From Apophysomyces variabilis (lineage: Eukaryota > Mucoromycota > Mucoromycetes > Mucorales > Mucoraceae): a stretch of 64,000 nt of DNA. The position numbers and the translations under genes are program-made. Below, piece after piece: positions 1 to 61,150 of this stretch; the first letter of the stretch is position 1, and the number at the start of each line of letters is the position of its first letter. The stretch spans positions 91,867 to 155,866 of the forward strand of contig MZZL01000381.1 in assembly GCA_002749535.1 (NCBI GenBank). Direction: 5' to 3'. The notes under the pieces are model-generated. The model saw only the letters and a program-made list of their open reading frames with translations. It was not told where the DNA came from and did no database searches.

Positions 1-3000
1 GGGAGTAATAGTCCTTGTTCATCCATAAGAACGTAAGATCCTCCTCGGGTTTCTCTGACGATGGTGTATGGACCATGGTAAGCGGGCTCTAGTTTGCCGC
101 GTTGTCTCTCTTTGATCATGACCTGGTTATTTGGTGCAAATTTCACCATTCGGTATTTCTTGTCAAATTTGCCTTTTTGTGCGTTTATGACAGCTTGTGT
201 TCTTTCCGCAATTGCTGGAAATACCACATTGGTCATGTCATCAATGCGTTGCAAAAGTTCTTCATTTGTCATAGGTGGTACGTTAGGATCGTTTGTGTAA
301 GATTTGAACCCGTTCATTGCTCTTGCAAACATAAGGGTGTATGGAGAAGATCCTGTTCTTTTTGTTTCTTTTGCATTTACCGCCAGTTGAACGCTTGGTA
401 CATATAGGTCCCAATCTCTTGTTGCGCCTTTAATGCACTTTTTTAATGCGTTCACTATTGTTTTAACCCAGCGTTTGGCAACACCGTTAGCTCTTGGGTG
501 ATAAGGCGTGACTAGTCTGTGATCAAATCCCGATGATTCAGAGAGTAATTTCATGAGGGAGTTGATGAACTCTTTTCCATTGTCAGATTGTAAATATCGA
601 GGGAATCCGAAATCGCAAAAGACGTTAATTACAGCTGTGACAACTGTGTCTTGAGATTTGTCAGGTATAGCACGAAGAACACAGAAACGTGTGCAAATAT
701 CAAGCATAACCAATAGGTAATTTTTACCTGTATGAGTGGTTGTGAATGGACCCGCGAGGTCTATTGCCCAATGATCGCCTGGTAGGTAAGCATGAATGGG
801 GCGTAATGGATGATATCCCTTTATAGAGATGTTATGTTTTTGGCATTCTATGCATTTGCGTGCTGTGTCAACAGCGTGTTTATGCATGTTGGGCCACGAT
901 AGACCATCATTGTGAAGTGCATTGACTATTGCATTTGCTCCAAAGTGTCCGAAAGCGTGTGCCTTCTCTAACAACTCTTGGCGTTCATCTTCTGGTGGTG
1001 TCATCATCTCTTCAGATTGAACTTCCACCGCTCTGTTAACGCACTTTCTCATACCTTGCAATGTATTTGCGGGAGCATTACCCCCTTCCAGCGTTTTTGC
1101 CGGGGTAAAAAGGCGTGATAATTGATCAGGCAGAATGTTGTCAAGTCCTGGAAGGTGCACAACATCAAAGTCATACTGTAAGATAGTATCGAGCCAATTG
1201 ATCATCATGGCGTTTGCCACTTTTTGTGTATGGAGATATGTCAATGCTTTGTGGTCGGTATAAAGGGTGAATTTGTTACCCCAGAGGTATTTGTGGAACT
1301 TTGTAAGAGCGTACACAACGGCTAAAAGCTCTCGTTTTGTGGTAGAATAGTTCCGTTCACTCTTTGAAAGAGCTCTTGCCATGAACCCTATGTGTCTTGT
1401 CTCGTTGTTGATAACCTGATACAGGGCAGCGCCTATGCCTGTGTTTGAGGCGTCTGTGGCAACACTGAATGGATACTTTAGGTTTGGGTAGCACAGTATG
1501 GGTAGCCTGAGAAGAACCTTTTTGAGGTTGTTGAAAGCTGTGACGTGCTCCTCTTTCCAAACGTCTTCAAGTGTTCCTTCATTGCGTAGCCTGTCTAATG
1601 GGGCTGTAAGCACGGATACGTTTGGTATGTGTTCGCGGAAGTAGTTGATTACGCCAAGGAAGCGTTGTATGTCAGTACCTGTGTGAGGTTCTGGCCATTC
1701 TTGGATGTTGCTCACTTTGCGTGGATCCAGAGATATTCCGTTGCGCGATACGCAGAAACCAAGGAGATGAACTGATTCTTGTGCGAAATAGCACTTCTTT
1801 GGGTTGAGGATTAGATTTACGCTGGTGAGCTTCTTTATGACCGTTTGGACATGTTGAGCGTGTTCCTCCATAGTAACTGAGTGTATGATAATATCATCGA
1901 CGAACGTGGTAACGAACACGAAGTCTTTGAAGATGATATTCATGACTCTTTGAAACTTGGATGATATTGGTTTGAGACCGAATGGACATCCTCTGAACAT
2001 GTATTGTGTACCTTTGAAGGTAAATGCTGTTTTGGGTCTGTCTTCTTCATAAATCTCAAAGCGATGGAAAGCTGTTTTGAGGTCCAGAGTGGTGAATACC
2101 TGCGATCCTCCTAGCTTGTGGAAAATGTCTCCAATGAGAGGCAGTGGATATCTGTCCTCCTTTAAGAGCTTGTTGATATGGCGTGGGTCTAGGCATGGAC
2201 GTCGATCAGTGTAGTTACCGAACATATCCTTCTTTGGTGCCAAAGTGAGAGGACTATTCCAAGCTGTGTCTACAGGAGCTTGTTCAATAGTTCCATCTTT
2301 GAGCCATGTATTGATGACTTCTTGAATTTTTGGTTCATACACAACTGGCAGTGGATACTGACGACGGTATGATGTTACACCTTCAGGCGTGTCAATGTGT
2401 ATTACCGATTCTGGAACGGTGCAGAAGGAAGTCTTTGGAATGCGTTCATTTGCTTCCAATGAGGGTTGAATGGCTTGAAGGAATGTTTCTCTTTCAGCCT
2501 TTGTACCTGCAGGTGAATTGTTTGGTTCTGGAGTGTCATTGGGAATATCACTTTTTACGTTGTTGTTGAGTGCATCATCCCATGAGGTAGCTATACCTGT
2601 GATGGCAATACCTAGTTTAGGCATAAGATCCAAACCAATACTGACGTGTGTGTCAAGTGCAAGATCCATAACGATGAATGTGTGGGTGCATTGTTTACCC
2701 ATGTACTGTAGTTGGATTTCAACTGTGCCATGACTTTCAGCAATCTGTTTTGTAGATGCGAGGTGGATTTTGTGTTTATTTTTTGTATTCAATAATAATT
2801 CTAATTCTCTTGCCAAAGAGAGACTAACAAACGAACTATTCGCACCAGTGTCTACCAGGGCCCACTGTCGACTACTCTGTAAAAGAATAGGTACAAAAAT
2901 TGAATCAGTGGTTTTGTTTGCGATAGTTTGTTTAAGGTGCTTACCTTGTTTTTGGAGGTCTAATTTCTCCATGTCAATAGGTAGCATGGTGTCGGGATCA

Positions 3001-4265
3001 TCAACATCCATGACCTTTGCCGCGCGGTTTGCGACGTATTTTTGTTTTTTGAAATCGAGGTATTCTTGGCAGGTATGCCCGGGCTTGTATTCCTCCTTCT
3101 TGCAGTACCGGCAGAGATTGGTACTCCTGGACTTGGTATTCTGCTTGGAGTGCTCGGCTGCCTCCTGAACCATTTCTTTCCATAGATTGCAATCCTGTTT
3201 GGTGTGTGAGCCCTTAGGATGTAGTGGGCAACCTTTTTTGAGGAAATGGCCGCGCTTGTGTTTCCTGTGGTCGGAGTTGTCATCAGCGGTGTAACGGCGT
3301 TTGCCATTGTTCCATTGTTCGCCCGTGTTGTGTGACCCGGCAGTGTCTTCTCCGCAAGACGCCATGATTAATTGCGCCGCCTGGTGTAAGTCATCCGTTA
3401 GGTCTAAACCGAAATGGTTTGTAAGAGTGGACCAGGCCTTCGTCTTGATACTGGGTAAAAGGGAGCAGACAAAGTTGTACACCAGATCAGAATCTTGCTG
3501 GAGGTTTGCCTCATAGGAAACTTCTTGGTACCTCTCCAAGAAAAGGCGGATGGACTCATTAGGACGTTGAGCCAAGTGGCGATGCTCATCCTTTTTGCGC
3601 CAAATGTAAAATGGATTGCCGAATTCTTTTTCCAATCGGGCACAGGCTTGATTCCACTTTAACCCGCGGTCTGCAAGTGTACGGGAGAACCATTGACGTT
3701 GAGTGTCGTCGCAGGTAAGCCAGAAGAGACGTTCCCAATGGTTGTCAAGGGGCACCAGATTGTACGCACGGAGTTGGACCTCAAAGGCGCTGATGAAGGT
3801 CTTGACTGAGTCATGTACTTTTTTGCTTTCATCCCGGATGGGACCACCACGAATTTGGAATGCTGGAAGATCCTTGGGAACCAGGGTGTAGAGTTTACCT
3901 CGTGTGGTAAGTGCAGTGTTTTCAGGAACCTCGTTTAAGGTGTCATCCTCTTGAGCTGCCTTAGCTCGTAGGAAAGCTTCCCAACAAGCTTCAGCACGGT
4001 CTAGGTCTGTTTGGGCACTGAGACGCTCTTGTTCACTAGCAGTCTCATCCGCAAGGATCACCATAAGCCTAGTGGAAGCTGTCTTCTTTCTGTTTCTCAA
4101 TATTTGCTCCAGTTCTTGAGCATTCACTGTATCCTCGAATGAGGTGTCAGCATTGGACATCACCATGTCCTCCGTTTCAGCTTGTGTTGCGTGCATCACC
4201 ATGGAGTTCTCCTGTTCAACAGGTACGTTGGCCAGGTTTTGAGCAGAGGTAGTGGGGACAGACAT
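1..4265 (-). CDS. Gag-Pol polyprotein of G1-a (C-terminus off window)
   Basis: A single Gag-Pol frame starts at the ATG at 4263-4265 (MSVPTTSAQ...), 45 bases inside the LTR, and stays open to base 1. In order it holds Gag with a capsid-like region; Cys/His clusters (CPLHPKGSHTKQDC and CRYCKKEEYKPGHTC, about 3080-3240); a retropepsin site LVDTGANSSF (about 2840-2870); RT with FVDDIIIHS (about 1880-1900); RNase H with YTDHKALTYL (about 1230-1260); and a zinc-binding plus DDE integrase. The chromodomain seen in the sister copy lies beyond the edge. Gag and Pol share one frame, with no -1/+1 shift site needed. The segment 2877-2944 is read through in this copy but has perfect intron signals (see separate entry). 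The frame was checked by eye. Confidence 0.9.
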   Translation of the reverse strand, partial: MSVPTTSAQNLANVPVEQENSMVMHATQAETEDMVMSNADTSFEDTVNAQELEQILRNRKKTASTRLMVILADETASEQERLSAQTDLDRAEACWEAFLRAKAAQEDDTLNEVPENTALTTRGKLYTLVPKDLPAFQIRGGPIRDESKKVHDSVKTFISAFEVQLRAYNLVPLDNHWERLFWLTCDDTQRQWFSRTLADRGLKWNQACARLEKEFGNPFYIWRKKDEHRHLAQRPNESIRLFLERYQEVSYEANLQQDSDLVYNFVCSLLPSIKTKAWSTLTNHFGLDLTDDLHQAAQLIMASCGEDTAGSHNTGEQWNNGKRRYTADDNSDHRKHKRGHFLKKGCPLHPKGSHTKQDCNLWKEMVQEAAEHSKQNTKSRSTNLCRYCKKEEYKPGHTCQEYLDFKKQKYVANRAAKVMDVDDPDTMLPIDMEKLDLQKQGKHLKQTIANKTTDSIFVPILLQSSRQWALVDTGANSSFVSLSLARELELLLNTKNKHKIHLASTKQIAESHGTVEIQLQYMGKQCTHTFIVMDLALDTHVSIGLDLMPKLGIAITGIATSWDDALNNNVKSDIPNDTPEPNNSPAGTKAERETFLQAIQPSLEANERIPKTSFCTVPESVIHIDTPEGVTSYRRQYPLPVVYEPKIQEVINTWLKDGTIEQAPVDTAWNSPLTLAPKKDMFGNYTDRRPCLDPRHINKLLKEDRYPLPLIGDIFHKLGGSQVFTTLDLKTAFHRFEIYEEDRPKTAFTFKGTQYMFRGCPFGLKPISSKFQRVMNIIFKDFVFVTTFVDDIIIHSVTMEEHAQHVQTVIKKLTSVNLILNPKKCYFAQESVHLLGFCVSRNGISLDPRKVSNIQEWPEPHTGTDIQRFLGVINYFREHIPNVSVLTAPLDRLRNEGTLEDVWKEEHVTAFNNLKKVLLRLPILCYPNLKYPFSVATDASNTGIGAALYQVINNETRHIGFMARALSKSERNYSTTKRELLAVVYALTKFHKYLWGNKFTLYTDHKALTYLHTQKVANAMMINWLDTILQYDFDVVHLPGLDNILPDQLSRLFTPAKTLEGGNAPANTLQGMRKCVNRAVEVQSEEMMTPPEDERQELLEKAHAFGHFGANAIVNALHNDGLSWPNMHKHAVDTARKCIECQKHNISIKGYHPLRPIHAYLPGDHWAIDLAGPFTTTHTGKNYLLVMLDICTRFCVLRAIPDKSQDTVVTAVINVFCDFGFPRYLQSDNGKEFINSLMKLLSESSGFDHRLVTPYHPRANGVAKRWVKTIVNALKKCIKGATRDWDLYVPSVQLAVNAKETKRTGSSPYTLMFARAMNGFKSYTNDPNVPPMTNEELLQRIDDMTNVVFPAIAERTQAVINAQKGKFDKKYRMVKFAPNNQVMIKERQRGKLEPAYHGPYTIVRETRGGSYVLMDEQGLLL
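1076..1091 (-). promoter_or_regulatory. Central polypurine tract of G1-a
   Basis: The minus strand reads CTGGAAGGGGGTAATG, identical over 16 bases to the 3' polypurine tract plus LTR start at 4662-4677. It lies in the linker between RNase H and integrase, the usual neighbourhood of a central PPT that primes a second plus-strand start during reverse transcription. Confidence 0.65.
2877..2944 (-). other. Candidate exitron (68 nt) at the G1 gag/protease boundary
   Basis: On the minus strand the segment begins GTAAGC, contains CTGAT (branch-point-like), and ends CTTTTACAG. It is coding when retained (it ends ...FVPILLQ just before the protease). It is 68 nt (2 mod 3) and starts in phase 1, so removing it joins CAA G to AG TAG and stops translation directly after Gag. 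Copy G1-b lacks exactly these 68 bases with the GT-AG join intact (7960-7961). Homologous segments occur in G3 (29043-29113) and G4 (38107-38186). Confidence 0.75.
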
Positions 4266-4297
4266 GATAAAAGAAAAATAAAATGGAATAGAAGAAT

Positions 4298-4354
4298 TCA
4301 AAGGAAAAAATGTGTTATATGTAGATAGAAAAAGGGACGGATAGAATCCTTTGA
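4298..4354 (-). promoter_or_regulatory. Self-priming pair: PBS (4298-4305) and LTR motif (4347-4354) of G1-a
   Basis: Just inside the 5' LTR the minus strand reads TTTTTTCCTTTGA. Its TCCTTTGA (4298-4305) is complementary to TCAAAGGA (4347-4354) in the LTR, 46 nt downstream of a TATAAATAG box (4392-4400). No tRNA-like TGG PBS is present. In Tf1-type elements the RNA 5' end folds back onto such a PBS to prime minus-strand DNA. Confidence 0.65.
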
Positions 4355-4663
4355 GACTGTTGGATATGTTTATTTCATTCAACTTGTCTGCCTATTTATA
4401 ATTATTTGCTCTTATGCGGGATTTGTAATTAGTGAACGTTCTTCTCGGCGATAGGTGTATGATTTAGCTAAGTGTAATAACTGCGGTAGAGCAGTGTCAC
4501 CTTGTCTTCATCCTCGGTGATAGATCTCTGATTTAGAGAAGAGGTGCAGTCGGTGTTCCAAACTAGAGAAGTTCACTGTAAATGGAAACACGTTAATTCC
4601 GATCATCCTGTTCATGGAACACAAGTACTAGGAAGTCACACTACGACAGCGACGTATACCACA
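4311..4663 (-). repeat. G1 LTR, 353 bp, shared by both copies
   Basis: A TG...CA LTR (minus strand starts TGTGGTATACG and ends ATATAACACA). It is both the 5' LTR of G1-a and the 3' LTR of G1-b. By eye it differs from the LTR at 9329-9681 at 4 of 353 positions, so the copies are recent. It contains TATAAATAG at 4392-4400. Confidence 0.92.
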
Positions 4664-4677
4664 TTACCCCCTTCCAG
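4662..4677 (-). promoter_or_regulatory. 3' polypurine tract of G1-b
   Basis: The minus strand reads CTGGAAGGGGGTAATG, running into the LTR start TGTGG. It is the plus-strand primer site next to the 3' LTR. Confidence 0.8.
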
Positions 4678-4718
4678 GTTAGACATAACCGTTAAAACTG
4701 TAATAGTTTGTGAAGGTA

Positions 4719-7700
4719 TTAATGGCGTGTACGTTTTGTTGGTCGTGTATTTGTCTGGTTTCTATTCAGACGTTTTTCGGAATGTGTGTTTGATGATGTG
4801 CGTGTCTGATGTGTTGTCTTGTCATTTGGTTTAGAACCAAGTCGTTCCCAGTAATCCATTATAGGCTTTGGACTGCTGAAGGAGTCTGGCTCCTGCCATG
4901 TGTCGTCCTTTTCATCATAGCCTTCCCATCTTACTCTGTAAATATAATTTCCCTTTGAAATTTCTTTGTGTCCGACAACAGCTTCAACAACATAATATTC
5001 TTTGCCTTTTTCTTGGACATCGTTGAGGGATATTATCTCATCTTGAGATATAAGTTTGAGTGCGGATGGTGGATAATCGCGTGGGAGTAGTAGTCCTTGT
5101 TCATCCATAAGAACGTAAGATCCTCCTCGGGTTTCTCTGACGATGGTGTATGGACCATGGTAAGCGGGCTCTAGTTTGCCGCGTTGTCTCTCTTTGATCA
5201 TGACCTGGTTATTTGGTGCAAATTTCACCATTCGGTATTTCTTGTCAAATTTGCCTTTTTGTGCGTTTATGACAGCTTGTGTTCTTTCCGCAATTGCTGG
5301 AAATACCACATTGGTCATGTCATCAATGCGTTGCAAAAGTTCTTCATTTGTCATAGGTGGTACGTTAGGATCGTTTGTGTAAGATTTGAACCCGTTCATT
5401 GCTCTTGCAAACATAAGGGTGTATGGAGAAGATCCTGTTCTTCTTGTTTCTTTTGCATTTACCGCCAGTTGAACGCTTGGTACATATAGGTCCCAATCTC
5501 TTGTTGCGCCTTTAATGCACTTTTTCAATGCGTTCACTGTTGTTTTAACCCAGCGTTCGGCAACACCGTTAGCTCTTGGGTGATAAGGCGTGACTAATCT
5601 GTGATCAAATCCAGATGATTCAGAGAGTAATTTCATGAGGGAGTTGATGAACTCTTTTCCATTGTCAGATTGTAAATATCGAGGGAATCCGAAATCGCAA
5701 AAGACGTTGATTACAGCTGTGACAACTGTGTCTTGAGATTTGTCAGGTATAGCACGAAGAACACAGAAACGTGTGCAAATATCAAGCATAACCAATAGGT
5801 AATTTTTACCTGTATGAGTGGTTGTGAATGGACCCGCGAGGTCTATTGCCCAATGATCGCCTGGTAGGTAAGCATGAATGGGGCGTAATGGATGATATCC
5901 CTTTATAGAGATGTTATGTTTTTGGCATTCTATGCATTTGCGTGCTGTGTCAACAGCGTGTTTATGCATGTTGGGCCACGATAGACCATCATTGTGAAGT
6001 GCATTGACTATTGCATTTGCTCCAAAGTGTCCGAAAGCGTGTGCCTTCTCTAACAACTCTTGGCGTTCATCTTCTGGTGGTGTCATCATCTCTTCGGATT
6101 GAACTTCCACCGCTCTGTTAACGCACTTTCTCATACCTTGCAATGTATTTGCGGGAGCATTACCCCCTTCCAGCGTTTTTGCCGGGGTAAAAAGGCGTGA
6201 TAATTGATCAGGCAGAATGTTGTCAAGTCCTGGAAGGTGCACAACATCAAAGTCATACTGTAAGATAGTATCGAGCCAATTGATCATCATGGCGTTTGCC
6301 ACTTTTTGTGTATGGAGATATGTCAATGCTTTGTGGTCGGTATAAAGGGTGAATTTGTTACCCCAGAGGTATTTGTGGAACTTTGTAAGAGCGTACACAA
6401 CGGCTAAAAGCTCTCGTTTTGTGGTAGAATAGTTCCGTTCACTCTTTGAAAGAGCTCTTGCCATGAACCCTATGTGTCTTGTCTCGTTGTTGATAACCTG
6501 ATACAGGGCAGCGCCTATGCCTGTGTTTGAGGCGTCTGTGGCAACACTGAATGGATACTTTAGGTTTGGGTAGCACAGTATGGGTAGCCTGAGAAGAACC
6601 TTTTTGAGGTTGTTGAAAGCTGTGACGTGCTCCTCTTTCCAAACGTCTTCAAGTGTTCCTTCATTGCGTAGCCTGTCTAATGGGGCTGTAAGCACGGATA
6701 CGTTTGGTATGTGTTCGCGGAAGTAGTTGATTACGCCAAGGAAGCGTTGTATGTCAGTACCTGTGTGAGGTTCTGGCCATTCTTGGATGTTGCTCACTTT
6801 GCGTGGATCCAGAGATATTCCATTGCGCGATACACAGAAACCAAGGAGATGAACTGATTCTTGTGTGAAATAGCACTTCTTTGGGTTGAGGATTAGATTT
6901 ACGCTGGTGAGCTTCTTTATGACCGTTTGGACATGTTGAGCGTGTTCCTCCATAGTAACTGAGTGTATGATAATATCATCGACGAACGTGGTAATGAACG
7001 CAAAGTCTTTGAAGATGATATTCATGACTCTTTGAAACTTGGATGATATTGGTTTGAGACCGAATGGACATCCTCTGAACATGTATTGAGTACCTTTGAA
7101 GGTAAATGCTGTTTTGGGTCTGTCTGCTTCATAAATCTCAAAGCGATGGAAAGCTGTTTTGAGGTCCAGAGTGGTGAATACCTGCGATCCTCCTAGCTTG
7201 TGGAAAATGTCTCCAATGAGAGGCAGTGGATATCTGTCCTCCTTTAAGAGCTTGTTGATATGGCGTGGGTCTAGGCATGGACGTCGATCAGTGTAGTTAC
7301 CGAACATATCCTTCTTTGGTGCCAAAGTGAGAGGACTATTCCAAGCTGTGTCTACAGGAGCTTGTTCAATAGTTCCATCTTTGAGCCATGTATTGATGAC
7401 TTCTTGAATTTTTGGTTCATACACAACTGGCAGTGGATACTGACGACGGTATGATGTTACACCTTCAGGCGTGTCAATGTGTATTACCGATTCTGGAACG
7501 GTGCAGAAGGAAGTCTTTGGAATGCGTTCATTTGCTTCCAATGAGGGTTGCATGGCTTGAAGGAATGTTTCTCTTTCAGCCTTTGTACCTGCAGGTGAAT
7601 TGTTTGGTTCTGGAGTGTCATTGGGAATATCACTTTTTACGTTGTTGTTGAGTGCATCATCCCATGAGGTAGCTATACCTGTGATGGCAATACCTAGTTT

Positions 7701-7898
7701 TGGCATAAGATCCAAACCAATACTGACGTGTGTGTCAAGTGCAAGATCCATAACGATGAATGTGTGGGTGCATTGTTTACCCATGTACTGTAGTTGGATT
7801 TCAACTGTGCCATGACTTTCCGCAATCTGTTTTGTAGATGCGAGGTGGATTTTGTGTTTATTTTTTGTATTCAATAATAATTCTAATTCTCTTGCCAA
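4719..7898 (-). CDS. Pol of G1-b (5'-truncated frame): RT, RNase H, integrase, chromodomain
   Basis: An open frame of about 1059 codons without a natural start. It continues from a retropepsin site VDTGANSSF just upstream, which is cut off from gag by the missing 68 bases. Domains: the rest of protease (about residues 1-60); RT with FVDDIIIHS (about 300-310) and the LGFCVSRNGISLD block; RNase H (ATDASNTGIGAAL, YTDHKALTYL); integrase with an H-H-C-C finger (about 620-680) and a DDE core (AIDLAGPF, LQSDNGKEF, NGVAERW); then a chromodomain near the end (YRVRWEGYDEKDDTWQEP), which in fungal chromoviruses steers integration towards modified chromatin. Catalytic residues are intact, but the frame can no longer be made as Gag-Pol. 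Confidence 0.9.
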   Translation of the reverse strand: MARELELLLNTKNKHKIHLASTKQIAESHGTVEIQLQYMGKQCTHTFIVMDLALDTHVSIGLDLMPKLGIAITGIATSWDDALNNNVKSDIPNDTPEPNNSPAGTKAERETFLQAMQPSLEANERIPKTSFCTVPESVIHIDTPEGVTSYRRQYPLPVVYEPKIQEVINTWLKDGTIEQAPVDTAWNSPLTLAPKKDMFGNYTDRRPCLDPRHINKLLKEDRYPLPLIGDIFHKLGGSQVFTTLDLKTAFHRFEIYEADRPKTAFTFKGTQYMFRGCPFGLKPISSKFQRVMNIIFKDFAFITTFVDDIIIHSVTMEEHAQHVQTVIKKLTSVNLILNPKKCYFTQESVHLLGFCVSRNGISLDPRKVSNIQEWPEPHTGTDIQRFLGVINYFREHIPNVSVLTAPLDRLRNEGTLEDVWKEEHVTAFNNLKKVLLRLPILCYPNLKYPFSVATDASNTGIGAALYQVINNETRHIGFMARALSKSERNYSTTKRELLAVVYALTKFHKYLWGNKFTLYTDHKALTYLHTQKVANAMMINWLDTILQYDFDVVHLPGLDNILPDQLSRLFTPAKTLEGGNAPANTLQGMRKCVNRAVEVQSEEMMTPPEDERQELLEKAHAFGHFGANAIVNALHNDGLSWPNMHKHAVDTARKCIECQKHNISIKGYHPLRPIHAYLPGDHWAIDLAGPFTTTHTGKNYLLVMLDICTRFCVLRAIPDKSQDTVVTAVINVFCDFGFPRYLQSDNGKEFINSLMKLLSESSGFDHRLVTPYHPRANGVAERWVKTTVNALKKCIKGATRDWDLYVPSVQLAVNAKETRRTGSSPYTLMFARAMNGFKSYTNDPNVPPMTNEELLQRIDDMTNVVFPAIAERTQAVINAQKGKFDKKYRMVKFAPNNQVMIKERQRGKLEPAYHGPYTIVRETRGGSYVLMDEQGLLLPRDYPPSALKLISQDEIISLNDVQEKGKEYYVVEAVVGHKEISKGNYIYRVRWEGYDEKDDTWQEPDSFSSPKPIMDYWERLGSKPNDKTTHQTRTSSNTHSEKRLNRNQTNTRPTKRTRH
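6158..6173 (-). promoter_or_regulatory. Central polypurine tract of G1-b
   Basis: Same 16-base match to the 3' PPT/LTR junction as in G1-a, in the RNase H-integrase linker (codons for LEGGNAP). Confidence 0.65.
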
Positions 7899-7959
7899 AG
7901 AGAGACTAACAAACGAACTATTCGCACCAGTGTCTACCAGGGCCCACTGTCGACTACTC

Positions 7960-9288
7960 TTGTTTTTGGAGGTCTAATTTCTCCATGTTGAGTGGTAACA
8001 ATCCAGCATCTGGATCGTCAATGTCCATGATCTTGGCCGCTCAGTTGGCAACAACCTTCTTTTTCAACTCCCAATACTCTTGACAAGTATGGCCGGGGGT
8101 GTACTCCACCTTCTTGCAGTATCTGCACAGATTCGGAGACTTCTTTGGCGTACTCTGTTTAGAGTGTTGCGCTGCTTCTTGAAGCATCTCCTTCCACAAA
8201 TTGCAGTCTTGCTTAGAGTGAGAACCCTTTGGATGGAGTGGGCAGGACTTAGGCCGGAAATTACCCCTTTTTGGTTTTCTTTGATCGGAGCTATCTTCGT
8301 TGGTGTAACGGCGCTTGCCATTGTTCCATTGTTCTCCGGACTGGTAGGACCCGGTGGTTTCTTCTCCGCAGGATGCCATGATCAACTGCGCCGCCTGATG
8401 GATATCATCCGTAAGGGCTAAACTGAAATGGTTCGTAAGGGTGGACCAGGCTTTGACCTTGATGTGCGGTTGAAGAGAGCAGACAAAATTGTATACCAAC
8501 TCAGGGTCTTGTTGAAGATTCGCCTCATAAGAGACTTCTTGGTATCGTTCTAGGAAGAGACGGATTGATTCATTGGGGCGTTGCGCCAGATGTCAGTGTT
8601 CATCCTTTTTTCGCCAGATGTAGAATGGGTTACTGAATTCCTTTTCCAGGCGGGTACAGGCTTGACTCCACTTTAAACCGCGGTCTGCTAGTGTATGTGA
8701 AAACCATTGACGTTGTGTGTCATCGCAAGTAAGCCAGAAGAGTTGTTCCCAGTGGTCATCCAGGGGCACCAGATTGTATGCTCGGAGCTGAACCTCAAAA
8801 GCACTGATAAAGGTCTTGACAGAGTCATGAACCTTTTTGTTCTCATCCCATACGGGACCACCACGAATTTGGAAAGCCGGAAGGTCTTTTGGAACCAGGG
8901 TGAAACGCTTGTTTTGTCCCGAATATATGTTTTCTCCTTCTTGTACCTTGTCTAAGGTGTCCTTTTGTGCTTCCTTGGCTTCTAGGAAGGCTTTCCAGGC
9001 AGTGTTGGCTGCATTCAAGTCATACTGGGCATCTAGCCGTTCTTGCTCACTAGAAGAGGCACTGGCCAGGACTTGCATCAGTCTGGTAGCTGCGTTCTTC
9101 TTTCTTGTTCTAAGCATTTCCTCAAGTTGTTCAATGTCAACTGAGGCTTCCGAGGAATTCTCAGCGTTTTCCATGACAGTGTCCTCCTGAGGAGGAATCT
9201 CGTTGCCAGAACCTTGGCCTAGTTCTTGTCTTTCTTCAATGGCAGGACCAGAGATGGGCATGTTGGTAGGTGTAATAGTGGCAGACAT
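7960..9288 (-). pseudogene. gag of G1-b, broken by two nonsense mutations and loss of the exitron
   Basis: Gag starts at the ATG at 9286-9288 (MSATITPTNM...). The frame is broken at 8590-8592, where ...KKDEH is followed by TGA (CGC in G1-a), and again near 8042-8044 (VAN-stop-AAK, CGC in G1-a). Both changes fit CGA to TGA decay. The nucleocapsid part still shows CPLHPKGSHSKQDC and CRYCKKVEYTPGHTC. At 7960-7961 the 68-base exitron is precisely absent, giving CAA GAG TAG and a stop before the protease. The protein differs clearly from G1-a Gag despite near-identical pol, pointing to a gag donor from another subfamily. Confidence 0.88.
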
Positions 9289-9315
9289 AGTAAGAAAAAT
9301 AAAAGATGAGAGAAT

Positions 9316-9372
9316 TCAAAGGAAAAAATGTGTTATATGTAGATAGAAAAGGGGACGGATAGAATCCTTTGA
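9316..9372 (-). promoter_or_regulatory. Self-priming pair of G1-b: PBS (9316-9323) and LTR motif (9365-9372)
   Basis: The same inverted pair as in G1-a: TCAAAGGA in the LTR and its complement just inside it. The TATAAATAG box is at 9410-9418. Confidence 0.6.
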
Positions 9373-9681
9373 GACTGTTAGATATCTTTATTTCATTCAA
9401 CTTGTCTGCCTATTTATAATTATTTGCTCTTATGCGGGATTTGTAATTAGTGAACGTTCTTCTCGGCGATAGGTGTATGATTTAGCTAAGTGTAATAACT
9501 GCGGTAGAGCAGTGTCACCTTGTCTTCATCCTCAGTGATAGATCTCTGATTTAGAGAAGAGGTGCAGTCGGTGTTCCAAACTAGAGAAGTTCACTGTAAA
9601 TGGAAACACGTTAATTCCGATCATCCTGTTCATGGAACACAAGTACTAGGAAGTCACACTACGACAGCGACGTATACCACA
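9329..9681 (-). repeat. 5' LTR of G1-b, 353 bp
   Basis: Ends in CCACA on the plus strand (TGTGG on the minus strand), directly abutting CAT at 9682-9684, which is the reversed start codon of the P0 accessory gene. Length equals that of the shared LTR. Confidence 0.92.
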
Positions 9682-11174: not shown

Positions 11175-11956
11175 GAGGGTCTATTATCCAGAATAAGAAA
11201 GATACTCTAGGAGAGAAAAGCTCTATGAACGACAATAGAAACAAAAATCAAGAAGTTTTAAAGGCATATATAGTACAGGAAGTGAGGGTATGGACAATGC
11301 CAGGTCAAGTCTGAACTAGATTGGAAGTATCTGAATCTGTAGAACCAGGTCGTTTTTATAAGCAAGCACGATTGAGCAGTGAGAATGAGCCTATGTAGTT
11401 ATCAGGACCAGAACACTCCTTACTAGCATTTATAAACCAACTGCAAGCGGTTACTACTCTGGGTAAACCCAAATGCAAATGGGCACCACCATGGAAGTTG
11501 GAAGTGAAAACTGATAAGATTGATATATAGGAAACCCTGAAAAAGACCAAAAGCAACATGTTATTGGTGCAACTGCTAGCAGTAGATTGAAACGTCGCTA
11601 AAGATGTGCAAGCCAGGCTAAGATACTTATATAGTAGGAAGATGCCAGCAAAAAGAGCAGACAAGGGCAAGGAGAGAGAAACTTAACTGATGGAAATTTC
11701 AGAAACACCAAACCTCCAAGCTCATCAGATGTTTGGAAACTATGCGAAAATGAATGAAGTGTAGGAGGAGAAGTATAGGAAAAGTGAAGATAAAGGGGAA
11801 GATCAATATCTATTTAATATATCAGAGGACAAGGAATTCTCTAAATTGGAAAGCAAAGTTGAAGGGAACCTCTCTGGATATAAATCAGATGATACAGTTT
11901 ATAATTACCCATATAATCTAACCTATATCTAAAAATTATCTCCTCTCATTGTACCT
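11175..11956 (+). mobile_element. G2 segment A (upstream part, degenerate)
   Basis: No intact frame. In the last 280 bases a frame continuous with the protease can be followed with several stops (for example ...NISEDKEFSKLESK... around 11815), so this is probably the decayed gag/protease leader of G2. No zinc knuckle or LTR was recognised. The left limit is set by the P0 terminus. Confidence 0.45.
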
Positions 11957-13791
11957 GTGGAGCTTAAAGGCTACAGTGTGGAACATGCAGTGGCTGATAC
12001 TGGCGCAGGACCCTTTATTGTAAGCCTACCTCTGGCAAAGAAATTGGGACTAAAGATGAATACAGATGCAATGGTAGTAGAACTACTGGATAGTACTTTA
12101 TCAACACTAAATAGGGTATGTGAAAACGTACCAGTACACATAGGAGGCAAGTTGTGCCCAGAGTACTTTATAGTACAGGATTATCCAGATGAATTGCTCA
12201 TACTGGAAATGACATGGTTTGAGAAGTATAACGTTGTGCTGAACTCTATGACATGCCAGCTGTACATACCAATCAAAGATGGCCGCTGTGGAGTGATGAT
12301 ACATGGCAGGTCAATGTCAGAGGGAGAAAGTAAGACTTATGCAGTGTCAAAAGCATATATGGCGATGATGCAGAAGGTAGAAAGTGAGTCTTGGTATACA
12401 GGGGAAGATGAGACGTTTAATGAAAAAGGAAAGGAAGGTGAACCAGAAGAAGTAAGAACAATCTTGAAAGAATATAAGGACTGTTTTGTGGAAAAAAGGG
12501 GATTGAAATGCGTCAAGGATTTTGAACATCATATCTAGACTATAGACAAAACATCAATCACCAGCCAACCTTATCATATAACCTAGAAAGAAGACGAATT
12601 CTTGCAACAGATGTTGGATAAAATGTTAGTAGATAATATTATATGACCCTCCAATAGGGAATAGACAGCGCCAATTATATTTGTGTCTAAAAAGTCAGGA
12701 GAACTTCATATTTGTCAGAATTATCAAAGACTTAATAAAGTAACTGTTAAGGACACATACCCACTGCCATATATAGATGACTTGATAGATTTCTTGGGAG
12801 GAGCAAAAATATTCAGCACATTGGATGCTGCTTCCAGATATTAGCAAATACCAATGGCTTAGGATTCTATCACCAAAATGGGTTTTACAATGAAGTACAG
12901 CACCTTCAAGTTCCTAGTCATGCCTTTTAGCCTTACAGCTATACCAGCAACGTTCCAGCAAGTCATGACAGCAATATTGAGACTATATATTGGAAAGTTT
13001 ATATACGTCTTCATCGATGACATAATTGTTTTTTCCAATATCATAAAAGAACATAGCAAACACCTCTGAAAAGTATTTGAGGCATGTATAGAGTATGACT
13101 TGCATTTGAAAAGAGAGAAGTGTCAGTTTGCATGAACAAGGGTGGAGTATCTGGGTCACATCATTACGGCTGAAGGAATACTACCTATATGTCAGAATGT
13201 GGAAAAAGTGCTGAACATGGTTGCATCTAAGAACGGTAAAGAAATTCATTCATTTTTAGGGACGACGGGCTATTATCATAGATTTGTTGTAGATTATGCA
13301 CAGAAAGCAGAATGCCTAATGTGCCTTACATGGAAAAATGTAAAATTCAAGTGGAGAATTGCTGAACAGGAAGCTTTTGAATATTTTAAGCAGCAATTGA
13401 CACAACTGCCAATCCTTGCATACCCTGATTGAGAACAAATCCAGATATTGACAATGGATGGATCAGGACTAGGAATTGGGGCAGTATTGTCGCAGTCTAA
13501 GAATGGTTTACCTGAGGGAGAGACAGTAGTGGCGTATGGATTGAGGGTTTTGCATGATATAGAAAAGAGGTATGCTGCAATGCACATGGAAGCTCTGGTG
13601 ATCATTTGGGCCATTAATCATTTTTGGCATTATTTGGCAGGCAGACATTTCATCCTCAATACAGACCATGCAGCATTAAAATATATTTTAAACAACCCAA
13701 AGCCAGGTGCAAATTTGGCAAGATGGGCTGTAGTGCTTATAGAGTATGATTTTGAGGTGCGATATCATAAAGGGTCACAGAACCCTGCGGA
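11957..13791 (+). pseudogene. G2 Ty3/gypsy protease-RT-RNase H, stop-ridden
   Basis: Plus-strand retroelement pol of a family distinct from G1/G3/G4. The retropepsin site is VADTGAGPFIV (about 11990). RT motifs include YPLPYIDDLIDFLGGAKIF, FKFLVMPFSLTAIPATFQ and the catalytic box VFIDDIIVFS (about 13005-13035), followed by VEYLGHIITAEGI. RNase H shows GSGLGIGAVLSQ and NTDHAALKYI. At least eight in-frame stops occur (12538, 12584, 12843, 12859, 13068, 13133, 13430 among others), mostly explained by CAA/CAG to TAA/TAG and CGA to TGA. It ends at NPAD, where P1 inserted; the frame resumes at 25090 as MLSHL. Confidence 0.88.
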
Positions 13792-14932: not shown

Positions 14933-15100
14933 CACTGCGGTCAAAAAAAGATTCTACCATCGGTAGAAACTTGGTAGAATCTGAGATTCCACCACCTTTC
15001 CACCACCTTTCCACCACTTTTCCACTGCGTGGTGGAATCTCTTTAAAGGTTTGTGGAATGTACCTTCCACCACCTTTTCCACCACCTTTCTACCACCCCC
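14933..15100. repeat. P2 left terminal and subterminal repeats
   Basis: The terminus is followed by nested direct and inverted copies of GATTCTACCACC-type words (ggtagaatc/gattctacc, ccacctttccacc), giving strong hairpin potential. Such subterminal arrays are where the DNA-binding protein of CACTA elements docks. Confidence 0.8.
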
Positions 15101-16240
15101 CCAACGTTCAACTATTGGATAAAGTGCTATATGTCAGAAACCATTATATTGATGTTATTGGATCAAGTATTATATATTAAAGGTTACTGTTATATCTTCA
15201 TTCAATCATATTCCTTTCTTTAAACGATTTTATTGGATCAACTTGTTTGAAATGATACATTCTATTGGAGCTAACTGTTCTTATCTAGTCTTTTTAATTG
15301 GAAGCTTTTCCTATCGCATGCATTACTTTAACCAATAAAATATACTCCTTTATCATTCCTAAGGATACTGCTTTAATTGTACATATAAAGAAAAAAATGC
15401 TTTTGTTTTATTGAAGCTTTTACAAAGTAATATACTATCAATAGCTAATTTTACGATTGGATCTATATAGTCTTACCTAGTTACTAAAGGATAAAAGAAA
15501 AATAATTAAACACAATGGTTAATAAAATGTATTAAAAGCTAAAACATGTTAATATACCTAAGACAGCATAGCAATAACAGTTGGCAAGATCCCTGATAAG
15601 CCTACAAAGAGCTACTTCTATATAAATAATCAACATTACAGCATAAAAAAGTTTCTATACCATTAAAAGTGTGTCATGCTTTTCTATGTCCGGTTTAAAA
15701 AGAGGAAAACTGTTCCAAATGATAAAAGAAAGTAAAGGTTAGCTAAGCCTAAGTAAGTCAATCAAAGTACCTTAGTTAAAAGTAACAAGCATGCTTACTC
15801 AAAGTGTAGGGAACATGCCGGCTATCAAAAGAAAAAAGAATGAGATTCTGTCAAATAAAAGATAAAAGCTTACCAGCAAAGAACACGGTTTCAGGTCAAG
15901 GTTGTATATCATTAGGATGATATATCATCAACATTGTGAAAGTGAGTTTGTCGATGAAGAAGTACTGAAACACCATAGAGTGAAAAAAAAAGTAGAGGAA
16001 AAAGTTTGTGAAAGAAAAGGATAAGGAAAAGAAAACGCGAATAACCCCATAAAAAAGAAAAAATTCTTTTCAGAAGCATGTGATATAAATATTGACGCAG
16101 TTCCTGGGAATCGCGCATACACAATCGCACCTCTTAGAAAAACGTAAAGTTTCAGGTTTGCTAATTAGTTTTTATTCTCTGCCAAAGTAAGATCCACACA
16201 TAAAGAATAAAGCACTTAACTCATTCATATCCAAAAAGAA
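15101..16240. other. P2 leader, non-coding
   Basis: AT-rich, about 1.1 kb, no supported gene. It is conserved in P0, P3, P4 and P5 although it does not code, so it may hold promoter or transposase-recognition sequence. Confidence 0.6.
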
Positions 16241-17205
16241 ATGTCTTCCAACCAAATATCGTCAAACGAGCAATTGTCTCGCCAAGTCAGTCTTTTGAAG
16301 GAAGACCTTCGTCTCCTTCAAACTGACAACGAGACTCTTCGACAGAGGGTGGATGCGTTGCAAGAGCAGCAGGAGAGAGAAAGATCGTCCAGCGTTATGG
16401 AGTTTAGCGTCTCCGCAGCTGTTGTTGCAGAGGGGTCGCAGCGAACCACTGATGTTGAATTGTCGGTAAGTGTGTTAAGATCCAGATGCAAGGCGTAGCT
16501 AATAAGGGCCGATCGTTAATCCATGAATAGAGAGAGATTCGACACTATGTGGAAGAATTGTTTAAGGATAATAAAGGGTACAAGTACGATGAGCCCTTCA
16601 ATTCTGATGCGAACAAGTTGGTCGTGTCTCAATTGAAAACGTACCTTCGGCAACACATGCCAAACAATCGCACTGTGCAAGCAGACCAGAAACTTCACAG
16701 CGTGTTGCATGATAACTTCAGAAACACAAAGAGAAAGTCTGCTGTTCCGGCAGACAAGAAAAAGGAGATGCAGGTGCGAAAACGGCGCTATCAGCGCGTA
16801 ACGAAGGCATGTCAAAATTCGTTTAAAGGTTTTAAAAAGCTTAGTTTTTTTGGCTGCTTTAGAAACTGGCCCAGAGAATGGATGCTCTCCTTAAAAATAG
16901 ACGCACTTTTGAGGAGCGGTATGCAGGTGACATAGATCGCCTCCTTTCACGTGACTGTATGTCCGCGGAAGAGTCCGATGGTGAAGGCAACGCGTCATTA
17001 CGCGTCAAACGCCCGCGCTGGAGATCTGACCAGGTAAGGTTTTCTATGACCGCCGGCCGTTTCAACTGATCACTTCTGGAAGGCGAATGAGTGCCTGGAA
17101 GCATTAGATGGGCTTTGCTCATCAGCAAAGAAGTTTTACACCAAGCATGTAGAAGAAGTAGAAATGGAATGCCCCACAGGATTGCCATCCTGGATGTTAA
17201 AGTAA
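16241..17205 (+). CDS. P2 accessory protein (coiled coil, four exons), possible TNPA-like DNA-binding partner
   Basis: Proposed exons: 16241-16465, 16531 to about 16809, 16863-17033 and 17083-17205. Introns run 16466-16530 (GTAAGT...ATAG), about 16810-16862, and 17034-17082 (GTAAGG...GAAG with CTGAT); the second donor may be GTAACG or a GC site a few bases on. All joins are phase 0, giving about 265 residues ending SWMLK. The N-terminus (MSSNQISSNEQLSRQVSLL, then LQEQQERER) is a coiled coil. The middle (LHSVLHDNFRNTKRKSAV, KKKEMQVRKRRYQ) is very basic. The C-terminus carries KKFYTKHVEEVEMECP. P1 and P5 keep the same gene structure. No known domain recognised. By analogy with the TNPA/TNPD pair of En/Spm it may bind the subterminal repeats; that is inference. 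Confidence 0.75.
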
Positions 17206-17307
17206 AATAGGTAAATAGCGTTTATTTAGCGAAATTGAAAGTACTAACTTATAAGACATAGAATAAAAAAAACTTTCTGAAAGGCAGAATGTTTGCTATA
17301 ATTTTCA
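17206..17307. other. Convergent intergenic spacer of P2
   Basis: About 100 bases between two convergent stop codons with AATAAA-like words (gaataaaa), probably shared 3' end signals for both transcripts. Confidence 0.4.
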
Positions 17308-23769: not shown

Positions 23770-23781
23770 TACTTTACACAT

Positions 23782-26040: not shown

Positions 26041-26183
26041 CATCTCGTGGAAGCAACATGTTCTGCTCATCAACCAAAGTATAGCTGCCTCCTTTGTTCT
26101 GTCTCAGAACNAACATCTCATGGAAGCAACATGTTCTGCTCATCAACCAAAGTATAGCTGCCTCCTTTGTTCTGTCTCAGAAC
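26041..26183. repeat. 70-bp duplicated block around an N in G3 pol (assembly join)
   Basis: 26041-26110 repeats as 26114-26183 after the N at 26111, with one CG/CA difference (catctcgtgg against catctcatgg). With one copy removed the pol frame runs on into the chromodomain, so this is an unmerged overlap, perhaps between two alleles or copies. Confidence 0.8.
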
Positions 26184-27234
26184 AGTGAATGGTCCTTCGT
26201 ATCTTGGGTCTGTTTTGCTGCTTCTAGACACGTTCACGATCATGACCTTGCTTCCAGGAGGAAATTCAACAATGCGATGATTGCTGTCAAACTTGTTGCT
26301 TTGTTTATTCTGCATTGTTTTAATGCGTTCATGGATAGCAGGTATCACTACTCGTTCCATTTGTTTGAGGCGTTTGGTCATTGCCCGAGTATCATCAGAA
26401 GTCTGTTGTACATTTCCCACTTTTACTTTATGATAGTCTTCGAAATTGTTTGGTTGACGGGCAAACATCAACGCAAAAGGACGTGTGTTGTGCAAAGAGG
26501 AAATTTTCAGATTGATAGCAAGTTGTGCACTTGGTAAATACAAATCCCAATCTTGTTTCTTACCTTGCAATCTTTTGACAACAACCTCTTTCATGGTTTT
26601 TACCCATTGTTCTGTGACGCCATTTGCGCGTGGATGATATGGTGTTACCAGTCTGTGGTCTATTCCTAAGTGTTCTGTAACGAGTATGATGACTTCGTTG
26701 ACAAATTCAGTGCCATTGTCTGATTGCAGGACTTTCAGGAAACCATAGTCGCAGAATACTTGAATAAGTTGCCTAGCAACAGAAAGTGCGGATTTGTCTG
26801 GTAATGCTTGTAAAATGCAAAAGCGTGAAAATACATCAACCATAACTAATACAAAGTTATTACCGTTGATAGTGGTAGTGTTGAAGTCACCAAGGTCAAT
26901 AGCCCAGTGGTCTCCAGGTTGGTCTGCAGTTATGTGTCGTAAGGGATGATAACCGTGTTTTCCGATGTTGAATTGTTGACAGTCAATACACTTGGCTACT
27001 GTGTTAAGTGCGTCTTGTTTGATAGTGCTCCAGTGGATTCCGTCACTGTGTAAAGCATTCACGATAGCATCTGAACTGAAATGGCCAAGAAGATGCGCTT
27101 TCTCCAGCAGTGATTGTCGTTCTGCTGTAGGAGGTGTCATATACTTGTGTGGTTTCAGTAAGCGTTGCGTGAGAACCTGTGTGGGAGTGGATGAAGGTGT
27201 TCCTGAATTGTCATGAGATGACGTGTTTGTGGAA

Positions 27235-27247
27235 ATACCCCCCTCCG
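27235..27247 (-). promoter_or_regulatory. Central polypurine tract of G3
   Basis: The minus strand reads GGAGGGGGGTAT in the RNase H-integrase linker (codons SEGGIS), sharing GGGGGGTA with the 3' PPT of this element. Confidence 0.55.
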
Positions 27248-29042
27248 AAAATGGAACAGGTGGTGCAAACAGACGCAAGAGAGCATCTGGTAAAATGTTG
27301 GCGATGCCAGGACGATGTACCACACGGTAAGTATAATCACAAATGGTATCAAGCCAGTTGATCATCATTGGATTGGCAATTTCCTGGGTGTGCAGGTAAG
27401 TTAAAGCGCGATGATCAGTGTAGAGCGTGAATTTGTTACCCCAAAGAAATTTGTGAAACTTTTTGAGGGCGTAGACAACGGCAAGTAATTCACGTTGTGT
27501 GACAGAATAGTTGCGCTCTGATCGACTGAGGGAGCGTGCCATGAAACCGATGTAATGAATGCAGTTGTTAATGACTTGATAGAGGACAGCGCCAATACCG
27601 TCGTTGGATGCGTCTGTAGCAACCGAGAAGGGTTCATCCATGTTTGGATGGCTGAGGATAGGAGCTTTCTCCAAAATTGCCTTGACACAATTGAATGTAT
27701 CAGTGTGCTGTGATGTCCAGAGGTTTTCAAGGCTACCAGCATTGCGTAATTTGTCAAGTGGTGCCGTAAGAGTGGAAATGGTAGGTATGTGCACTCGGAA
27801 GTAATTGACAAGTCCAAGAAACCTTTGAATATCTTTGCCTGTTTTGGGCTGTGGCCAAGTTTGGACGTTTGTAACCTTGCGCGGGTCAAGGCGAATACTA
27901 TCTGCATCCATGCAGAAACCAAGTAAATAAACAGCGCGTTGCGCGAAGTGACATTTCTCTGGATTGAGTATGAGATTGACAGCAGTGAGATGGCGGATTG
28001 CATCTGCAACGTGTTCCGTGTGTTCTTCCAGTGTTTTGGAAAAGATGATGATATTGTCAACGAACGTAGTAACATAGTTAAGTCTGTGAAAGACATAATT
28101 CATGACGCGTTGAAATTTTGAGGAGATGGGTTTGAGTCCAAAAGGACAACCGCGGAACATGTATTGTATGCCATCGACAGTGAAGGCAGTTTTGTGTTGG
28201 TGAGGTTCATAAATTTGAAACCGATGAAAAGCATTTTTCAGGTCAAGTGTGGAGAACACTGTTGCGCCATGCATCTTCTGAAAGATGTCATTAATTAACG
28301 GAAGTGGGAAACGATCATCTGGAAGCAGATTGTTGATGTGGCATGGGTCTAGGCAAGGTCGTCTGCCTGTTAGATTGCCATACGCGTCCTTTTTTAGTGC
28401 GAAAGTCAGAGGGCTATTCCATCTGGTATTCACTGGTGCACGGGTGATGATGCTGTCAGTGAGCCATTTGTTCACTTGCTCTCGTAAAAGAGGTAGCAGT
28501 TTGTGGGGAAGATCATATTGTCTTCGATAAGCAGTTTGGTTAGGTGGGGTGTCTAACCTGACAATAGATTCTGGAACGGTACAGAATGAAGAGTTTGGTA
28601 TTTTTAGATTTTCATCCAGCAAGGGTTGGATCGTTTTCATTAAAAGTGTGCGTTCAGTGGGGGTGCCAACTGGTGAATTGTTTGGCTCAAGGTCGTCTTG
28701 AGGTTCTTTAGTTTCCAGTGCTTTAGGTAAACTGGGTTGGTGCCAGCATACAGGTAAACCAATGAAGTGAATACCTAGGCATGTCATAAGATCAGTACCA
28801 ATGCAAATATTGGCAAGAGGATCATTTAGATCAAACACTTCGAAAGAGTGGTAGATTGTAAGGTTATTGCAAACAACTTTAATGGGTGGAGTCTTTCCAA
28901 CACGCGAAACAGATTTATTATGAGCTGCAAGTTTTATTGTCCCAGATTGGGGTAAAATTTTCCAACCGTTGTTCAAACAAAGAGAATGGGAAACTGTGCT
29001 GATAGTAGCACTGGAGTCCAAGAGAGCTCGTAAGTTTAGGTC

Positions 29043-29113
29043 CTGTAAAGTGATAGGCACATAGTAAGAACTGGTTTTTTGGAATGAATAATCCTGAGAT
29101 GTATGTAACTTAC
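29043..29113 (-). other. Candidate exitron (71 nt) at the G3 gag/protease boundary
   Basis: The minus strand begins with the consensus donor GTAAGT, has CTTAC as a possible branch site, and ends CACTTTACAG. Retained, it codes up to YVPITLQ just before the protease. Removed, ATG T joins GA to make TGA at once. Length is 2 mod 3 and phase is 1, as in G1 and G4. Confidence 0.7.
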
Positions 29114-30513
29114 ACATGTTGCATGACTCAGCGATCGCCTTGTCAATCTCTTCTGCGATCATATTGGTGTCTTCATTGATGTCCTCCTGTTGCTGATTGG
29201 TTTCTTCTGTGGATGTTTCTTGGACCCGTGTAGAACGGATCGCCATAGTATTGGTGGTGGTGTTGGAGTCACCGTTACACTTGTGGCCACAGGACCACAC
29301 AGATCCACAACCCTTGTAACACAGAGCGGAATTTGTTTTAGACAATGGGGAGCGGGAAGATGCGTTGGTGCCTGACTTGTTGGGCCCAGAACCAGAAGGA
29401 GATGATTGAGGTGCTTTGTCAACACGTTGACCCGATTGGATCGTTCTTAGGGTGTCTGCCAAAACTCTACACTCGTTTGTAGAGTGTGTACCTTTGCCGT
29501 GGACATGGCAGTGCTGTTCCTTACGCTGAAAAGCGCGTTGATTAGAGGAAAAGGGTCGTTGTACCTTTTGTTCTGAAGATCTTGTGCGTTCACCAAGGGA
29601 CTTTTGTTGAACTACCTGAGGATACAGAGCTCTAGCCATGGAGGAAGCTTGATCAATAGTACATCTTTGACTGACAGGAAGGTTGACCTGGGCAAGATGG
29701 ACTTGACGAGAGATTTCCGGTAACAATGAGTTAATGTATAAGATTGCTGTAACACGATCATCATCAACACCAGCTTCATGTCGTACATGATGGAACCGAT
29801 CAGTGTACTTTTCTACAGATTCATTTCTTGACATCTTCATGCTGATGAGTTCCTGGGTGAAGTTTGCTTGACGTTCTGCATCATTAATGCTATATTTTTG
29901 CAACAAAGCATTACGAGCATATGACTATGGAAGATGAGGCATTCTTCTCAAGTGTGCATTAAACCAGGAACGTTGTTCTGAAGAAAGAGTCCTGGGCAGC
30001 AACCGGTGCCAGCATTCGTCAAGTTCTTGTCCATATGAAATAACAATATCCTCAAACTTGTCCAGGCATTCTTGGATGGAAGTGAAAATGGTCTTGGTTT
30101 GATCTACTACATTTCTAGTCCATTGGAGGAGAGGGAGTTCCTTGGGCACAACATATGGAGCACGGTACGTAGACTGGTGGGTCTTGTCCTTAAGGCCGGC
30201 AAACTTCTTCTTGGTTTGCAAAAGCATGTCTAGGTCACGATTCTTCTGGTCATAGGCTTTTCTAGCGGCTTCTTTTTCTTCCATAGTAGTAGAAGGGGAT
30301 GCAATTTGTTCACCAAGCTTAGCAAGTTGCAGGGAGACCTCATTGATTGAAGCTTCAGTGCGCTGTTCACTGGATCCTTGCATGCAGAGCTTGTCTTCTA
30401 TTGTAGTCTCTACGGGGCGCACAATATCCATTTCAGAGGATACGGAAACAGGGGAAGAGAGAGGGCTACTTGACAATTGTTGCGACATTGATGGATTAAG
30501 AACAAAAGAGTAT

Positions 30514-38106: not shown

Positions 38107-38186
38107 CTATAATGTCAAAGGTACAAAATATGATTTAGACATGCTTTGTTCAGATTTCATCACTCTAATGCAGTAGTTGGACTTAC
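38107..38186 (-). other. Candidate exitron (80 nt) at the G4 gag/protease boundary
   Basis: The minus strand begins GTAAGT, contains CTAAAT, and ends ACATTATAG. Retained, it codes up to YFVPLTL before the protease (final CAG now TAG). Removed, CTG A joins AG TAA to give an immediate stop. Phase 1 and length 2 mod 3, as in G1 and G3. Confidence 0.65.
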
Positions 38187-61049: not shown

Positions 61050-61150
61050 AATAGGTAAATAGCGTTTATTTAGCGAAATTGAAAGTACTAACTTATAAGA
61101 CATAGAATAAAAAAAACTTTTAAAAGGCAGAATGTTTGCTATAATTTTCA

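Follow-up and report, generated by a model that had tools for sequence, protein, structure and literature searches.

We analysed a window of 64,000 nucleotides from the genome of Apophysomyces variabilis (contig MZZL01000381.1, positions 91,867 to 155,866 of the forward strand; coordinates below are those of the window unless a contig is named). Retrotransposon copies of three groups, G1, G3 and G4, carry there a short segment with GT and AG ends between gag and the protease. The features are as follows, with a slash marking the borders of the segment.

2877..2944, minus strand: G1 segment (exitron), 68 nt, GTAAGC...TTTTACAG; retained it gives a Gag-Pol fusion, removed it gives CAA GAG TAG
2946..4265, minus strand: G1 gag, 440 codons, with a Retrotrans_gag domain (Pfam) and a C-x2-C...G-H-x-C knuckle
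1..2876, minus strand: G1 pol, continuing beyond the window edge; the gag frame is carried through the segment
29043..29113, minus strand: G3 exitron, 71 nt, T/GTAAGT...CTTTACAG/GA; TGA stop at the junction
26121..29924, minus strand: G3 open frame of 1268 aa that spans the exitron, with RT, RNase H and integrase (Pfam)
38107..38186, minus strand: G4 exitron, 80 nt, A/GTAAGT...ATTATAG/AGTAA; stop AAG TAA

Each is a GT-AG segment inside an open frame that is coding if retained. An initial annotation of this DNA had described the three segments as exitrons, and on re-reading we found its coordinates, lengths and minus-strand placement to be exact, as were the donors (GTAAGC, GTAAGT and GTAAGT) and acceptors (TTTTACAG, CTTTACAG and ATTATAG) of G1, G3 and G4. 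The phase-1 donors, the lengths of 2 mod 3 and the immediate stops upon removal (GAG TAG, TGA and AAG TAA) were likewise as it gave them. The G4 copy in the window is decayed, with stops that break its frame, and its ATTATAG acceptor is a variant of the ATTACAG present in six of the seven full G4 copies. A protease motif follows directly after each segment (DTGA in G1, DSSA in the G3 window copy and DTST in the G4 window copy). The G1 zinc knuckle ends 41 residues ahead of the donor, and Gag made from spliced G1 RNA would retain it.

The G1 copy belongs to a pair. Positions 1-9681 (minus strand) hold two tandem copies with one common LTR, in which a copy in the spliced state, L007, lies upstream in the sense of the element and the segment-bearing G1 copy downstream. 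The initial annotation does not mention the spliced state of L007.

4311..4663, minus strand: LTR common to both tandem copies (3' LTR of L007 and 5' LTR of G1), ends approximate
9329..9681, minus strand: 5' LTR of L007, ends approximate
7949..7966, minus strand: spliced junction of L007, exon 1 ending at 7959 and exon 2 starting at 7958, with exactly 68 nt missing
4722..7973, minus strand: open pol frame of L007, with protease, RT, RNase H, integrase and chromodomain (Pfam)
7961..9330, minus strand: gag of L007, of a second gag subfamily, its frame broken by in-frame stops

The same tandem order, a spliced copy (L056), an LTR and a segment-bearing copy (L036), recurs on contig C45. Elsewhere in the window, 15220-20157 and 59063-64000 are long repeats that are 95% identical, and 20576-25086 is a further one, with about 82% identity to 14933-19431 inverted. 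Two ORFs, 18598-19812 (minus) and 20555-21259 (plus), match Transposase_21 (tnp2), and we take the repeats to be a CACTA-like DNA transposon family. Another ORF, 11933-12535 (plus), has weak matches to retroviral aspartyl proteases (RVP_2, Asp_protease_2) and lies outside G1, G3 and G4.

The initial annotation had spoken of three chromovirus families. In the G1-type pol of L007, Pfam models for protease, RT, RNase H and integrase were found in that order, and a Chromo domain (PF00385) lies after the integrase at 994-1044. The 1268-aa frame of G3 gave RT, RNase H and integrase, with neither a Chromo nor a protease model at E<=0.01, and we therefore label G3 Ty3-type only. Of these two groups, the chromovirus label is thus shown for G1 only. 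Two LTRs together with a target-site duplication were found in the segment-bearing copies L001 and L003 and in the spliced copy L008.

To see how far the segment extends, we turned to the rest of the genome, where a protease query gave 107 matches. The stretch ahead of the protease was read in the G1-G4 copies and at 36 further loci, with 30 of the 107 matches left out. The segment is present in 13 groups of Ty3-type elements, which were grouped manually by sequence and not by formal clustering, and 71 segment-bearing copies were read. These counts leave out L021 and L023 (the second fragments of L007 and of L008), the truncated L022, L046 (the second fragment of L042), L054/L055 (a single copy with an interruption within the segment) and L108 (59 nt, too short). 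The most distant group, G12, has 27-29% identity to the G1 query.

The initial annotation had proposed asking whether the splice dinucleotides hold across copies, and they do: 70 of 71 copies have kept both GT and AG, and in every one of these, taking the segment out creates a stop at the junction codon or at the codon after it. Of these 70, 66 were scored by search expressions and four (L103, L105, L107 and L109) apart. The expressions include the start of exon 2, such that a copy giving no stop would have scored as not found; none of the 66 did. The remaining copy, L104, has AT in place of the donor GT, and removal would still yield the stop. Segment lengths run from 54 to 80 nt. The expectation that they stay at 2 mod 3 held in 11 of the 13 groups and failed in G12 (72 nt) and G13 (54 nt), which are 0 mod 3 and obtain their stop from T/AA at the junction codon; the stop is immediate in 13 of 13 groups. 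It is TAG in G1, TAA in G2, G6, G7, G10-G13 and two of seven G4 copies, and TGA in G3, G5, G8 and the other five G4 copies, while in G9 one copy has TGA and another TAA. The donor continues as GTAAG, GTATG, GTACG, GTATT or GTAAA, and as GTACA in L105. That of G2 is weak (GTATTC in 11 of 12 copies, GTATTT in one), and some G2 copies have long open frames.

In L001 (within L028) the LTRs are identical over 353 bp and flanked by the duplication CAGGT, and a single frame runs open from gag across the segment and for 3.3 kb more. L011, a G2 copy within L032, likewise has one open frame across the segment, and L003 has the target-site duplication ATGGG. Stops interrupt the fused frame in other copies, for example L003-L006 and L012. 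In one G3 and one G4 copy an interruption falls near or within the segment, of more than 1.3 kb in L042/L046 (C60) and of about 5.8 kb in L054/L055 (C120). For comparison with the host, the median length of 19 introns inferred in its chaperonin genes is 60 nt, with 17 of 19 at 49-66 nt; this set was partly chosen by donor score, so that only its length range is informative. The segments are of the same order, most of them above the host median. A CTRAY branch-site match occurs in 10 of the 19 inferred host introns and is absent from many segments.

Are the splice signals kept as nucleotides or as the codons they overlap? The donor codon is NGT in all 70 intact copies and its residue is Gly, Cys, Ser or Arg; the residue varies while NGT is constant, and therefore it is the nucleotides that are kept. 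The acceptor is a different matter. Toward its 3' end the segment codes for V-P-I-x-L-Q or the like, the strand ahead of the protease motif, and because the acceptor overlaps these codons, TTACAG is weak evidence by itself. We therefore rejected the acceptor alone as proof of splicing, and the earlier claim that the splice signals are conserved while the residues around the donor are not stands for the donor; at the acceptor, protease codons constrain the sequence. As a rough control we used NGT...YAG pairs 54-80 nt apart in two open frames, the L007 pol frame (1 of 17) and the G3 frame (4 of 45). A stop fell within two codons in 5 of these 62 pairs, compared with 66 of 66 copies in the 13 groups. 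After in-frame NAG codons, a stop arose in 38 of 104 cases when the last exon base was T and in 10 of 104 when it was G. The groups have ancestry in common, and chance figures of this kind must therefore not be multiplied as if independent.

We found five genomic copies, in three groups, that are exactly without the segment: L007 and L008 in G1, L056 in G3, and L076 and L106 in G6, all with junctions confirmed by script. A search of the genome with the G1 region returned six segment-bearing G1 copies (L001-L006), 12 copies of the sister group G2 with a 65-nt segment (L009-L020), one truncated copy (L022), and the matches of L007 and L008, which break off and restart at the splice sites. L008 lies at C61:177055, and the alignment gives AAAACAAG/AGTAG in both copies alike. 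L008 is flanked by two LTRs and by CTTAG, a target-site duplication of 5 bp, as would be expected of an inserted cDNA. In G3, a spliced-junction pattern written beforehand had a single genomic match without mismatches, at C45:15980 (L056), and the reversed pattern, used as a control, had none in the genome. What L056 lacks is precisely the 74-nt segment of its close relatives L043-L045. The G6 copies lie at C61:86951 (L076) and C125:11092 (L106). The pattern searches covered G2, G3, G4, G5, G7 and G10; for G2, G4, G5, G7 and G10 the junction patterns found no spliced copy in the genome.

Two other explanations for single copies were rejected. L007 might have been a gag recombinant that merely has no segment; this was ruled out, the gag subfamily of L007 and L008 being present with the segment in L005 and L006. 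The gag of L022 stops exactly at the exon end, which could reflect a splice to another acceptor; the downstream sequence runs into a G7-type element, and L022 was kept as a truncation. Its locus, L033 (C122), is an observation in its own right: at about 3096 a G2 gag remnant ends exactly at the boundary of exon 1 and is followed by other sequence toward the G7-type element, through chance truncation or another cause.

Judged by the sequences of the five copies, the segment was lost in at least three events, one per group. Within G1, L007 and L008 may represent two separate events. Four informative sites at most about 140 nt from the junction pair L007 with L005 and L008 with L006, both segment-bearing, and sites 194 nt upstream and 206 nt downstream unite L007 with L008; such sites are few, and of the 13 that lie up to about 420 nt from the junction 10 are CpG-related, as deamination would give. 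The kinship of L007 and L008 is weakly resolved in the pol and gag trees. Among these G1-type copies (L005-L008), L005 and L007 have an in-frame gag TGA in common, which deamination would likewise give. Because five copies in three groups are without the segment exactly at its splice sites, splicing of the segment is close to certain, and the initial reading of it as an exitron whose removal yields Gag only is supported in G1, G3 and G6.

We propose that the segment is a facultative spliceosomal intron, set within the one frame that gag and pol share in these Ty3-type elements (which in G1 bear a chromodomain). RNA left unspliced would be translated into Gag-Pol and also serve as the genome. 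Splicing would take out 54-80 nt and with them the first protease strand, placing a stop at or beside the junction, and the only product of the spliced RNA would be Gag, complete and with the zinc knuckle retained. Other elements obtain excess Gag by frameshifting, stop read-through or separate RNAs; here it would be supplied by splicing. Since just 54-80 nt are lost, the spliced RNA probably retains its packaging and priming signals and could be copied, which would explain the intron-less genomic copies. Their small number (5 versus 71) fits this proposal, as they would give no one-chain Gag-Pol without recoding. The splice sites, their conservation, the stop and the DNA copies of the spliced form can be read directly in the genome. 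That the spliced RNA is abundant, is translated and sets the ratio of Gag to Gag-Pol is what we infer from them. Taken as a whole, a facultative intron that divides Gag from Gag-Pol is very probably the right explanation.

Splicing could also be an accident, the signals being by-products of coding, the spliced RNA having no role and the intron-less copies being harmless fossils. The coincidence of the acceptor with conserved protease-strand codons (I/T-L-Q) agrees with this, as does the small number of spliced copies beside the 71 with the segment. However, an accident would hardly account for a constant NGT under four different donor residues, or for a stop that is kept as TAG, TAA or TGA across two length classes and 13 groups when the rough chance level is 5 of 62 pairs, and we regard it as improbable. 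Still less probable, in our judgement, is splicing driven by the host or a silencing trap, in which the host spliceosome would remove the segment, thereby kill Pol expression and do the element no service. Translation of the spliced form does end short of Pol, and the long untranslated 3' part that would follow the stop is a usual signal for decay; yet a change at the donor would let the element escape, and the site has been kept in 13 groups.

The segment-free copies might instead have arisen by ordinary deletion between short repeats and then spread, in which case they would be silent on splicing. There is a two-base AG microhomology at the G1 borders, and L007 and L008 could descend from one ancestor, given the weak trees and the outer sites that unite them. 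Against this stand the exact GT-AG removal in three groups, the LTRs and target-site duplication of L008, and the four near-junction sites, which suggest two events although their number is small and CpG changes may underlie most of them; deletion is thus extremely unlikely. We would give equally little credence to the spliced RNA as the messenger for Pol, with frameshifting or read-through at the new stop producing Gag-Pol. In the intron-less L007, pol does remain open over a long stretch, in a frame offset from that of gag, but the single open frame through the segment in L001 and L011 would then be needless, and in G12 and G13 the frame is unshifted, with the stop at the junction.

The facultative intron may be older than this genome. 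Two protein searches (best 120 of 543 and best 120 of 638 matches) gave 167 relatives, as protein only; those named among the matches listed include Lichtheimia, Absidia, Rhizopus, Circinella and Mucor. We parsed 94 of the 167 (82 non-redundant). From protein, the rule can be stated as follows: an AG across an E codon (I-E) leads to a stop only after a Cys donor, and a Gly or Ser donor needs Q, next a residue that an NNT codon can encode, and after it one of N, K, S, R, D and E. The donor was called Cys if C-K occurred anywhere in a 27-residue window, otherwise Gly, otherwise Ser, a procedure that leans to Cys. E acceptors, among the 82 non-redundant proteins parsed, were found 31 times with Cys, never with Gly or Ser, and once uncalled (P0008, a mis-parse); the forbidden pair of an E acceptor with a Gly or Ser donor thus occurred in 0 of 31 called non-redundant cases among the matches listed. 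Q acceptors among these matches occurred twice with Cys, in each case with the required N next, and five times uncalled; with Gly or Ser, 11 of 13 fit the second-codon rule, and P0021 and P0089 fail. In 30 of the 82 another residue stands at the acceptor place, and nine of these have a C-K donor with N, G or D, a combination that the rule would not seem to explain from protein alone.

A table of E or Q against Cys or other donors among the matches listed gave a Fisher p of 1e-9, a value inflated by relatedness. A tree with 59 rows has six changes of acceptor type and five of donor type; of four supported independent donor-acceptor pairs one or two agree, none opposes and the rest show no difference, which is not significant. 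Relatives elsewhere mostly fit the rule, and it is likely to hold among them, although common ancestry is a possible cause. One relative locus (27% identity) was found among viral contigs and four (30-40%) among genome contigs, in each case matching in the integrase part only. A wider claim would be that from an early ancestor of mucoralean Ty3-type elements onward a coding intron, and not frameshifting, has divided Gag from Gag-Pol. The donor base and the codons after the acceptor would then change together such that spliced RNA stops at once: after T/GT a stop in the junction codon is possible, and after G, A or C before GT it would have to come in the next codon. We lean only slightly toward this claim, because the association on the tree is not significant.

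In a literature search covering titles and the openings of abstracts, with few subscription journals, no such intron was reported for fungal or chromodomain Ty3 elements among the matches listed. Splicing as an answer, known for a few Copia elements, would here extend to the Ty3-type elements of one fungus, whose genome itself records the spliced state. It bears on the way in which a sufficient supply of Gag is made where gag and pol form one frame. Gene predictors may also excise such segments and split Gag-Pol models.

Known systems share parts of this arrangement. Tca2 of Candida albicans, as far as described in PMC2194720, is likewise a fungal element with its own control of gag and pol. 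Ogre and CRR, which are plant Gypsy elements, also splice inside the element; according to their description in PMC3735527, however, Ogre splices between ORFs and CRR removes rt to give two ORFs, and neither stops directly after Gag. In Drosophila copia, like EVD and BARE1 a Copia element, splicing gives an RNA dedicated to Gag, as it would here, but takes out about 2950 nt, virtually all of pol (PMC3735527). The Arabidopsis Copia element EVD makes a spliced short Gag RNA, shGAG, that the account in PMC8892269 describes as coupled to premature cleavage and polyadenylation. An unspliced Gag-Pol RNA beside a spliced short Gag RNA would be common to both, as deduced here from DNA, whereas in our elements 54-80 nt would be cut from an otherwise full-length RNA, as the intron-less copies with pol suggest.

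The closest likeness is to BARE1 of barley, a Copia element with a single gag-pol ORF and, in the account given in PMC3735527, a facultative intron of 104 nt at the end of gag. Its removal shifts the frame to a stop three residues past Gag, and the spliced RNA encodes Gag only; that account reports the short form from RNA but not from genomic DNA. Here too a small intron lies at the gag end of a single frame, and its removal gave a stop right after Gag in 66 of 66 copies across 13 groups, and likewise in the four further intact copies. Unlike BARE1, the elements are fungal and Ty3-type, with 13 groups in one genome, and their spliced form is known from genomic copies, whereas that of BARE1 was shown by RNA. 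In G1 the domain order is of the Ty3 type and a chromodomain is present, which places the element outside Copia. The segment would work like the BARE1 intron, yet the element that carries it is outside the BARE1 family.
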